In this document: piece after piece, positions 456 through 8,684 of the stretch
How positions within the stretch are numbered: the first letter of the stretch is position 1
How the letters are laid out: the number at the start of each line of letters is the position of its first letter
Assembly: GCA_017548175.1 (NCBI GenBank)
Contig: JAFYMZ010000180.1
Span: forward strand, 1-8,684
Reading direction: 5' to 3'
Length of the DNA stretch: 8,684 nucleotides
From: Clostridia bacterium
GTDB lineage: Bacteria; Bacillota_A; Clostridia; Oscillospirales; Butyricicoccaceae
The notes under the pieces: generated by a model
Database searches by the model: none
The model's input: the letters and a program-made list of their open reading frames with translations, nothing else
What the model was told of the DNA's origin: nothing
Translations under genes and position numbers: made by a program

Positions 456-1322
456 TTATTTTTTCAGCAGGCGTGCGCCCACGGTACGGGCAATGGCCAT
501 AGCGGTGACATTGCTGGAGGGCAGCAGCATCGCATGCAGGCCCTGATGGAAGGTCAACACATCGCCGGGCAGGAAATCTTCTGCATAGAAGCCGCCGATT
601 TCGGTGTCAAACTGACAATAATCAAAGGTCTCGCACAGGCTATCCACTTCATCCAGCATACAAACGGCGGTCAGAACCTTACTGACGGATGCCGGCACCA
701 GCGCTTCTTCGGCATTCTTGGCATAGAGTAGCGGCAGGTCTTCGCCCACCGGTGCGCCGGCGGCGGGGATCAGACAAGCGGCGGCTGCCTTGCAGCACAC
801 ATCCCGGTCAGACAAATCCAAATCGGGATCGGCCAGTTTCTCCAGCGCAATATCTGCGATCTGGCGGACGGCATCAAATCGGCTGCCAACCTCGCCGTTG
901 GGCGCATCGGCATACAATTCTACCACAGCCAGCCGTTCTCTGCGGCCGGGGATCTCCAGAATGACTGCCAGATTTCGTGCGTTGTATCGGGTCAGCGTGC
1001 CGGTTTTTCCGCCAATGATGTGATAATACATCTCCAGATGAGGCTGGACTACGGTAGATTCCACCGTCTGCTTCCGGGGCATATCACCCATGACCACCAG
1101 TTCATATTCCGGCGCGTTCCAGATGCCGTCCAGCGCACGGTAGCGGTCGGCACACAGCAGCAACCGCAGCAGATCGTGCGCCGTGCTCAGGTTATCGATA
1201 CCGGCCGGGTCACGGAACAAGCTGTTGTGCATGCCGATCGCAGCAGCTTTTTCGTTCATCCGTGCCACAAATGCGGCCAATGCCTCTGCCTCGGCGCAAG
1301 GTCTTTTTTCCATCTGATCCAT
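456..1322 (-). CDS. Circularly permuted D-Ala-D-Ala carboxypeptidase-like serine hydrolase (S11-like)
   Basis: This is a 288-residue protein. In order along the chain it shows FVARMNEKAAAIGM (residues 18-31), RDPAGID/STAHDL (37-51), GGKTGTL with K106-T107-G108, the strand NLAVILE (117-123), SRFDAVRQIADIALEKL (147-163), LLYAKNAEEALVPASVSK with the SxxK motif S212-K215, and LLPSSN with the SxN motif S269-S270-N271. Ordinary S11 enzymes run SxxK, SxN, MNxxAxxLGM helix, KTG. Here the piece before the helix sits at the C-terminus and the rest comes first, so the old termini are joined through residues 164-192 and new termini open just after SxN. All three catalytic motifs occur once and intact, so activity is plausible. 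No signal peptide or membrane segment is visible, unlike exported family members. The start at 1322 is chosen because GAGGG lies 7 nt upstream; the longer ATG at 1388 overlaps the -35 box. The gene stands alone between its own promoter and terminator. Substrate is unknown. Confidence 0.8.
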   Translation of the reverse strand: MDQMEKRPCAEAEALAAFVARMNEKAAAIGMHNSLFRDPAGIDNLSTAHDLLRLLLCADRYRALDGIWNAPEYELVVMGDMPRKQTVESTVVQPHLEMYYHIIGGKTGTLTRYNARNLAVILEIPGRRERLAVVELYADAPNGEVGSRFDAVRQIADIALEKLADPDLDLSDRDVCCKAAAACLIPAAGAPVGEDLPLLYAKNAEEALVPASVSKVLTAVCMLDEVDSLCETFDYCQFDTEIGGFYAEDFLPGDVLTFHQGLHAMLLPSSNVTAMAIARTVGARLLKK

Positions 1323-7409: not shown

Positions 7410-7600
7410 ACTGCAAATCATTATCTCGCTTATCGATTGGTAAGCAGTCATGCCGACCCTGCCGGATCACCTTGCCGCAATGATACGCAATATTCAGTTG
7501 GTGTGCGGAAAAACAAAAAACTGCAGCAACCCAAATGGATCGCTGCAGCCGTATTCCCGCAACAAATGTCAAGATTGCGCACAGCGGATTTCAGGATCAT
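7410..7600. other. Stretch without a supported gene
   Basis: Apart from the terminator at 7511-7548, this stretch holds one rightward frame from ATG at 7450 to a stop at 7602 (50 codons; cysteines at 19, 25, 40 and 43). It has no ribosome site and overlaps the T-tract of a leftward terminator, so I do not call it a gene. No tRNA or other RNA was seen. Confidence 0.5.
7511..7548 (-). terminator. Leftward intrinsic terminator
   Basis: CTGCAGC (7521-7527) pairs with GCTGCAG (7542-7548); on the minus strand the stem is followed by TTTTTTGTTTTT. It is the second of three hairpins facing leftward traffic between the guaA remnant and the trx promoter. Confidence 0.65.
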
Positions 7601-7636
7601 AAAAGCCCCCGGAAGCAATGCTGCTTCCGGAGGCTT
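7601..7636 (-). terminator. Probable native guaA terminator
   Basis: AAGCC-C-CCGGAAGCA (7603-7617) pairs with TGCTTCCGG-A-GGCTT (7622-7636), with one mismatch and an ATGC loop. On the minus strand it is followed by TTTT. It lies 14 nt past the TAA at 7651-7653, as expected for the end of a leftward guaA. Confidence 0.7.
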
Positions 7637-7650
7637 GTTGGTTTTATTGA

Positions 7651-7672
7651 TTATTCCCACTCGCTTACGAGT
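7651..7672 (-). pseudogene. guaA: 3'-terminal guaA codons: probable attachment site of an integrated element
   Basis: The minus strand reads GAG TGG GAA TAA (7662-7651), Glu-Trp-Glu-stop. GMP synthases commonly end in TIEWE, and the 3' end of guaA is a known target for integrative elements. A terminator follows but no guaA coding sequence precedes it. The core is overlapped by a short inverted repeat ACTCG-CTTA-CGAGT (7659-7672), typical of a tyrosine-recombinase crossover site. Only about four codons match, so the call is inference; the intact guaA should lie at the far end of the element, to the right. Confidence 0.55.
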
Positions 7673-7772
7673 TCTTTCCCACAGTTACTTTTCGCCTTAT
7701 TTTGGGCTAATTTCCGTGAGATTTCTCTCGTTTTGCTTCGTTTTTCTCTGTATTCTCTGTGTTATCAGCCCG

Positions 7773-7807
7773 TTTGGTACTGTTTTGGTATCAAAGTTTG
7801 GTATCAA
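7773..7807. repeat. Short direct repeats, possible integrase arm sites
   Basis: TTTGGTA occurs at 7773-7779, 7784-7790 and 7797-7803; the last two extend to identical TTTGGTATCAA copies (7784-7794 and 7797-7807). Spacings of 11 and 13 bp are near one helical turn, about 110 bp from the att-like core. This resembles arm-type binding sites of tyrosine integrases. Confidence 0.5.
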
Positions 7808-7921
7808 TTTTCTGAAAAATCGGCGGAGAAAAAATTCGTTATTCTTTTTGAGCAAGTGATACCGTAACTGATGATATGTTGCAAATGGCTTGTAAGTTAG
7901 TATTCCTTGGTGAGCAAAGAC

Positions 7922-7950
7922 ATTATATCATATTACGTAGCGCATTACAA
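7922..7950 (-). promoter_or_regulatory. Possible leftward promoter inside the element end
   Basis: On the minus strand TTGTAA (7950-7945), 17 nt, perfect TATAAT (7927-7922). No gene follows before the guaA remnant. In AT-rich DNA this could be chance. Confidence 0.35.
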
Positions 7951-7989
7951 ACATAACAATACATCATATTTAATAATCGATGTATGTAC

Positions 7990-8340
7990 TCATTTTATTT
8001 CCAAACGGATATACGCTGTACCAGGAGGAGCCACTATTCTAGGTCCACGTTCTCCGGATATTGGAGTATCCGTTCGCGTCGATAAATCACCATCATTCAG
8101 TGCAATCATGAATGGCTTAATGATTCTGTCTTTCGGAATACCATTAAGAATATACTTTTGTGTTGGATTATATGGCGCAAATAAGTCGTAAACATTACGT
8201 AACGTAGTGATGACTTCGTGCGCAATTTGTCGAACAAGAGCATATTGAAGGTATTTAATTGCTATCGTATCTCCACTTGGAGCAATGTGCGTTAAAATGT
8301 TGGCAGTGCTTGTGATAATACCCTTATAGACTGAATCCAT
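7990..8340 (-). CDS. Hypothetical protein, possibly truncated at its N-terminus
   Basis: I do not recognise this 116-residue frame. It has natural-looking composition: about 80 residues rich in aliphatic and helical residues (SVYKGIITSTANILTHIAPS, then IKYLQYALVRQIAHEVITTL), followed by a Gly/Pro-rich end, TPISGERGPRIVAPPGTAYI-RLEIK, which resembles the close of a beta-sandwich but is not diagnostic. No signal peptide. No clear ribosome site precedes the ATG at 8340, which falls exactly where the sequence changes to an unrelated fragment, so the true N-terminus may be missing. Codons are AT-rich compared with the left-hand genes. The hairpin ATACATC/GATGTAT (7959-7985) lies just past the stop. 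Confidence 0.5.
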   Translation of the reverse strand: MDSVYKGIITSTANILTHIAPSGDTIAIKYLQYALVRQIAHEVITTLRNVYDLFAPYNPTQKYILNGIPKDRIIKPFMIALNDGDLSTRTDTPISGERGPRIVAPPGTAYIRLEIK

Positions 8341-8684
8341 CTTATTGAAGTTATCGACATGCAGAAGCCCGGAGAGGTGTTTGAATTCGACGGCATGAAG
8401 GTGAAGGTGCTTGGCGTGGCCAACGAATACACAAACAATCCCTATAACAATTCGTCAACCATCCTAAGGGTATGGGACAGAAAGAAATCCATTGTCTTTC
8501 TGGGAGATGCCGGAGTGGAATGTGGCGACAAGGTTCTGAACGGTCCTTTCCGCAACGACCTTGACTGCGAATACCTGCAAATGGCACACCACGGACAGCA
8601 GGGATGCTCGGAAGATTTCTACCGTTCCGTGAAATTCCGCGTATGCCTTTGGCCCACTCCTACATGGGTGTGGAACAACAATCA
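8341..8684 (+). pseudogene. Metallo-beta-lactamase-fold hydrolase fragment (N-terminus missing, runs off the window)
   Basis: The frame is open from 8335 to the window edge. It reads LIEVIDMQKPGEVFEFDGMK, then NNSSTILRVWDRKKSIVFLGDAG (the GD aspartate is a usual metal ligand), then LDCEYLQMAHHGQQGCSEDF with the late His pair, and CLWPTPTWVW. This is the C-terminal half of an MBL-fold protein of the ComEC-like soluble type; the HxHxDH signature that should lie upstream is absent. An in-frame TGA sits at 8332-8334 and no ribosome site precedes the first ATG (8359), so it is not a functional start. Either a real truncation or an assembly join. Confidence 0.7.

Follow-up and report, generated by a model that had tools for sequence, protein, structure and literature searches.

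The window analysed here is a stretch of 8,684 nucleotides from a Clostridia bacterium (contig JAFYMZ010000180.1). On its minus strand, at 456..1322, lies an open reading frame (ORF) that starts with ATG and encodes 288 amino acid residues followed by a stop codon. The original prediction had placed the gene correctly; it is read from the minus strand, whereas the plus-strand frame at these positions is broken by a stop. The encoded product, hereafter the window protein, carries all three motifs of peptidase family S11, namely KTG (K106-G108; 999..1007, minus strand), SxxK (S212-K215; 678..689, minus strand), which holds the predicted nucleophile and general base, and SxN (S269-N271; 510..518, minus strand). 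The canonical linear order SxxK, SxN, KTG is absent from this protein, and we therefore treat it as a permuted relative rather than a canonical member of S11. Very likely, its product is a natural circular permutant of the S11-type (penicillin-binding) domain, which is predicted to adopt a single fold and would process D-Ala-D-Ala-type peptides by serine acyl-enzyme chemistry.

Permuted order of the S11 blocks

The order KTG, SxxK, SxN can be read directly from the 288-residue translation, as had been proposed. The distance from SxxK to SxN is 57 residues, the value originally reported, while SxN and KTG, counted through the joined termini of the protein, lie 125 residues apart rather than about 120. 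We name the two halves of the domain by their position in canonical S11 proteins, a position that is reversed in the permuted ones. The C block (from the MN-KA...GM helix to the strands past KTG) is N-terminal here and spans residues 16-140 (903..1277, minus strand), as seen with a half profile, with PF00768 and in the model match. The N block (a strand, the SxxK helix and SxN) is C-terminal here and spans residues 195-285 (468..740, minus strand), as seen with a half profile and in the match of a fragment model. The new termini of the window protein lie just ahead of the MN..KA...GM helix.

Profile and pairwise searches recover both blocks in swapped positions. The PF00768 (Peptidase_S11) model matched the window protein in two stretches with 45.5 bits (gathering cut-off 27.6), the better one aligning residues 16-109 with profile positions 120-211. 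In phmmer searches of PDB chains, residues 196-285 aligned with positions 20-107 of 3mfd and residues 15-109 with positions 107-199 of the same chain, the former stretch being weak by itself (10.8 bits); the best stretch for 1es4 aligned residues 198-283 with chain positions 21-110. Against class A beta-lactamase models the window protein stayed under the cut-offs (16.3 vs 22 bits for PF13354, 12.9 vs 200 bits for NF033103).

We scored 72 rotations of the window protein, made in four-residue steps, with a canonical S11 profile of 256 positions built from 51 canonical-order domains. The unrotated protein scored 97.9 bits and covered profile positions 108-251 only; rotations that start at residues 165-197 scored 171.6-172.1 bits and covered positions 24-251 (24-249 for start 165). 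Half of the shuffled controls (25 of 50) gave any match, the top score being 0.2 bits. Because the scores peak for these starts, we place the joint between the old C-terminus and the old N-terminus somewhere within residues 165-197 (732..830, minus strand). The rotated chain thus scores over nearly the whole profile, which bears out the proposal that joining the C-terminus to the N-terminus restores a normal S11 sequence.

The AlphaFold2 model of the window protein is a confident single domain (predicted local distance difference test score, pLDDT, 91.6; predicted template modelling score, pTM, 0.90). With sequential aligners, model residues 10-169 match residues 112-294 of 4k91_B and a fragment model of residues 165-288 matches residues 4-115 of the same chain, so that two parts of the predicted structure correspond to complementary halves of one penicillin-binding protein (PBP). 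It is likely that the permuted protein still folds into a single working active site, since the same catalytic residues are kept in all 62 versions of the domain described below.

Signals for expression surround the gene on the minus strand. A sigma-70-type promoter match, TTGCCA-17-TATAAT (1388-1360), has 11 of 12 consensus bases and ends 37 bases 5' of the ATG; a Shine-Dalgarno-like GAGGGA (1334-1329), read from the sequence, lies 6 bases 5' of the ATG; and a consensus match to an intrinsic terminator, a hairpin with a 13-bp stem (444-413), lies 3' of the stop codon. The promoter, ribosome site, uninterrupted frame and terminator invoked in the original prediction are thus all present, and the ribosome site is plausible, but the promoter-type matches in the stretch (3, with 1.5 expected from shuffles) and the terminator-type matches (3, with 1.6 expected) occur at numbers near chance. 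A hydropathy scan, as distinct from a signal-peptide predictor, found no hydrophobic N-terminus and hence no visible signal peptide in the window protein. We rejected a signal peptide hidden upstream: on visual inspection the in-frame extension to 1388 is free of hydrophobic stretches, and the promoter match ends only 37 bases from the start codon. The protein has no extra C-terminal domain.

Neighbouring genes match the SCFA transporter, riboflavin ECF, M24, ZIP, NCS2, GNAT, rhodanese and thioredoxin families. A prophage or phage tail module around the gene was considered and is unsupported, these neighbours being ordinary metabolic and transport genes. At the far end of the window (7600-8684) the GC content drops to some 36% around 7600-8200, while another open frame starts after about 8340 and runs off the end, possibly marking a contig junction.

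Relatives of the permuted domain and their contexts

A protein homologue search collected 52 proteins. Classification by blocks assigned 42 of them to the permuted order (P0002-P0038, P0040-P0044) and nine to the canonical order (P0045-P0053). The remaining protein, P0039 (383 residues), has a carbohydrate-binding-like module and, of the permuted domain, only the C block. P0002 is 99% identical to the window protein and represents a cluster of 43 member sequences. Further permuted domains were drawn from genome contigs, viral contigs, phage records and plasmids. In the first set of loci, 92 ORFs with a block match were classified as permuted (14), canonical (56) or single-block (22); the first viral scan retained the best 80 of 382 relatives, and in a second one 12 of 19 loci were permuted and 7 canonical. 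With duplicates removed and the window's own included, there are 62 distinct permuted domains, many of them in phage proteins; the window gene does not stand alone.

Residues K106, G108, S212, K215, S269 and N271 are invariant in all 62 domains. At the middle position of KTG, by contrast, T occurs in 27, G in 13, D in 12 and S in 10. The permuted proteins that are bacterial or unplaced fall into several types. All members of the clade of the window protein (P0001-P0013) have KTG (13/13), and the hydropathy scan found a hydrophobic N-terminus in none of them (0/13). Twelve relatives (P0014-P0021, P0024, P0027, P0032, P0034) have CKDG in place of KTG together with a hydrophobic N-terminal segment (12/12 for both), which suggests, at the level of sequence, that their substrate pocket has changed. 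Ten others (P0022, P0025, P0026, P0028-P0031, P0033, P0035, P0036) have (R/K)KGG at this place, and none of the ten has a hydrophobic N-terminus. Block boundaries coincide across the permuted rows. The gap between the blocks is 206 residues in L017 and 214 in L019, compared with 40-87 in the other permuted rows of that classification. In both of these proteins (L017 7479-9284, L019 7449-9377) a carbohydrate-binding-like module sits between the two blocks, at the site of the old termini; the Pfam match of the L017 module is under the cut-off (20.4 vs 25.9).

Full matches to the permuted domain were rare among genomes when scanned at strict E-value cut-offs in overlapping draws, with only part of the candidates scored in the 396-, 394- and 391-genome sets and in some genomes of the 268-genome set. 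Scans around genome G001 found a full permuted match in G001 only (1/396, 1/394, 1/391 and 1/15 genomes); nine further genomes of the 394-genome scan had half matches, all of which were canonical on classification. A scan around G1135 found full permuted matches in 2 of 268 genomes, one being the genome behind L003 and the other containing an ORF that equals L004 in length and position. The permuted forms L003 and L004, both from Bacteroidota, have a signal-like N-terminal segment, as read from the sequence.

Several permuted domains are associated with phage tail genes. In a Vagococcus locus (L002), the domain ends an 842-residue protein encoded after genes that match tape-measure, Dit and tail-protein-with-endopeptidase families, and before an endolysin gene. 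In L011, it ends a 639-residue protein whose gene is flanked by genes for Dit and a tail protein, with a holin gene following. The permuted gene of L017 lies downstream of tape measure and Dit genes, and in L013 and L014 the gene directly upstream has partial minor-tail or tail-fibre matches; no tail match was found among the upstream genes of L031. Staphylococcus phages UHP46 and ZCSS1 each have one permuted gene annotated as 'serine hydrolase' (the region was read in UHP46). In the phage-contig proteins of L002, L011 and L015, in P0039 and in the L001 protein, the permuted domain is preceded by a carbohydrate-binding-like module. The latter is a 4023-residue open frame (L001 1702-13770) in an Oscillospiraceae metagenome-assembled genome, with matches to peptidase S9, the carbohydrate-binding-like module, permuted S11 and GDSL lipase; the same genome also holds five canonical S11 matches, and one of its canonical S11 proteins carries this module as well.

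Five plasmid records have matches that cover 80% or more of the query. The three plasmids examined each have a free-standing permuted gene of 257-259 codons that starts directly after an in-frame stop (for one of them the DNA itself was read), and the records with the permuted order are given as complete sequences. The staphylococcal plasmid genes correspond to RefSeq 'serine hydrolase' entries WP_069805213.1, WP_053025643.1 and WP_070863822.1. On two of these plasmids (L124 7983-11154, L125 7983-10839) the permuted gene and a gene of the Mur ligase family face each other, an arrangement not seen on the third (L145).

Origin of the permuted order and proposed function

In a tree built from both blocks of 70 rows (35 permuted, 35 canonical), a branch supported at 95/94 separates all permuted rows from the canonical ones, and an earlier two-block tree (32 permuted, 34 canonical) gave the same separation with 99/96. 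Seven canonical rows lie nearest to the permuted clade, three from viral contigs (L018, L029, L142) and four from bacterial contigs (L005, L006, L007, L009); the branch that unites them with it has support of 93/91 and is not starred. The plasmid gene pairs with a staphylococcal phage gene (100/92). These relationships suggest that there was a single permutation, among phage tail S11 domains or close to them, and that the permuted domain was probably spread by phages; free-standing genes, the window gene and that of the staphylococcal plasmids among them, would then be captures of a phage tail domain. In its fullest form, this scenario has one ancient circular permutation giving rise to a second lineage of penicillin-recognising enzymes in phage tail tips, captured at least twice (in the window lineage and on staphylococcal plasmids) as signal-less free-standing enzymes active inside the cell; we regard it as possible, if short of probable. 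No duplication intermediates, that is proteins with more than two block matches, were flagged in the two classified sets, and a route through duplication and trimming thus stays a guess. The module that parts the two blocks in L017 and L019 could be left over from a duplication step or have been inserted later. Contigs of Erwinia and Pantoea (L006, L008) have two canonical S11 open frames in tandem, an arrangement able to yield a permutant.

In S11 enzymes, the SxxK serine attacks a D-Ala-D-Ala-type bond with the lysine as the base, and SxN and KTG complete the site. By analogy, S212 of the window protein would attack the carbonyl of such a bond with K215 as the base, proton relay and substrate positioning would fall to S269 and N271, and the substrate carboxylate would be held by K106 together with T107. 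The acyl-enzyme would then be hydrolysed, as in a carboxypeptidase or endopeptidase, or aminolysed. We consider such acyl-enzyme chemistry likely for the permuted domain, but the label 'D-Ala-D-Ala carboxypeptidase' is putative for the window protein, which has no visible signal peptide and whose relatives vary in the middle residue of KTG; any specific physiological role for the protein is doubtful. In phage tail tips the domain may trim or cut wall peptides at entry, and tail S11 domains would dispense with a signal peptide because virion parts exit the cell at lysis. The window protein could work in the cytoplasm, or exert its activity once the cell has lysed. As it lacks a visible signal peptide, we tentatively take the cytoplasm as the default, with cytosolic muropeptides or D-Ala-D-Ala-ended precursors as possible substrates.

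Several observations weigh against one or another part of this interpretation. The AlphaFold2 model was built on permuted homologues only. Best Foldseek matches are weak both for the whole model (6muq, E 3.3e-3, TMq 0.37) and for the fragment model (E 2.3e-2), and the fragment's best Z score of 7.2 is in the range that the tool labels as a possibly common arrangement. The best VIA rows for the whole model align the C block only, and the best viral structure match (A0A1P8VVG5, E 9e-3) is partial; Foldseek and VIA are both sequential, and because such aligners cannot superpose a whole permuted model, their whole-model results neither support nor refute the whole fold. The 51 canonical rows were collected with profiles from permuted proteins, which may bias the rotation profile and the tree, and for this reason the Pfam and PDB searches serve as independent checks. 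With D or G in the middle of KTG in 25 of the 62 domains, members of the family may differ in the substrates they recognise. The case for a phage origin of the window gene itself is weak, given its ordinary metabolic and transport neighbours. Finally, single-block trees need four (C block) and three (N block) order changes, and a tree with the long row L054 needs two; a single origin of the permutation is therefore supported by the sequences, not proven.

These extra order changes are what would be expected if the permuted order had arisen several times independently, through repeated duplication and trimming of S11 domains in phages and bacteria. The differing architectures, with the long, module-filled gaps of L017 and L019 set against short gaps elsewhere, point the same way. 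We nevertheless find independent origins quite improbable, since both concatenated trees keep the permuted rows together and the block boundaries coincide among them. We give almost no credence to the explanation that the order stems from a rearrangement during assembly, from a frameshift or from motifs that occur by chance in some unrelated ORF. The 3' end of the window after about 8340 may join other DNA, making local chimerism conceivable; the cluster of P0002, the complete plasmid records and phage genomes with the same order, the 62 distinct domains and the near-complete profile match of the rotated protein all speak against an artefact. Frameshift or misassembly, named at the outset as what might overturn the prediction, was accordingly rejected on the evidence of these homologues.

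The rival view of function holds that the S11 fold was kept in permuted order and peptidase activity lost, leaving an adhesin or sensor for wall peptides or glycans, or another ester or amide hydrolase. The D and G substitutions in KTG and the carbohydrate-binding-like module beside the domain in several proteins would fit such a role, as would the missing signal peptide, since canonical S11 enzymes are usually exported by one. Still, the SxxK serine and lysine, needless for a pure binder, are kept in 62/62 domains and the clade of the window protein retains KTG throughout, which makes loss of peptidase activity unlikely.

Comparison with known systems

PBPs and serine beta-lactamases belong to the most thoroughly studied superfamilies of enzymes, and the order of their motifs helps to identify them. 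No natural example of a permuted S11 or penicillin-binding protein turned up in the open-licence literature, subscription literature and preprints being outside the search, and the permutation described in PMC12419801 concerns another fold. The permuted family brings to light a group of phage tail domains that had been overlooked and are likely to act on the wall, provides a ready set for testing the folding and evolution of permutants, and poses the puzzle of why bacteria and plasmids keep penicillin-binding-type proteins without a signal peptide.

The closest known natural systems differ from the window protein in different respects. The staphylococcal plasmid proteins are about 30% identical to it and, like it, are free-standing permuted S11 domains with no signal peptide; the product names and notes shown in their 'serine hydrolase' records do not mention a permutation. 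L018, L029 and L142, the viral-contig proteins among the nearest canonical rows, end in an S11 domain with the canonical block order, unlike the window protein. In L018 the canonical domain ends a phage protein that matches PHROG 5304 'peptidase' and is encoded downstream of baseplate genes. With family S11 as a whole (PF00768; PBP5/PBP6, K15 DD-transpeptidase, staphylococcal PBP4) the window protein shares the three motifs and, block by block, the profile and predicted fold. It differs from these enzymes in its swapped blocks, in new termini placed before the MN-KA-GM helix with the old ones joined within residues 165-197, and in having neither a visible signal peptide nor an extra C-terminal domain.

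The closest precedent is man-made, the CP254 beta-lactamase (PDB 1alq), described in PMC2395249 as a laboratory permutant of staphylococcal PC1 cut at residue 254. A natural, conserved permutant parallels what protein engineers have made with this beta-lactamase. The two differ in the place of the cut: in CP254 it lies past KTG, going by the residue numbering, whereas the natural permutant is cut between SxN and KTG.
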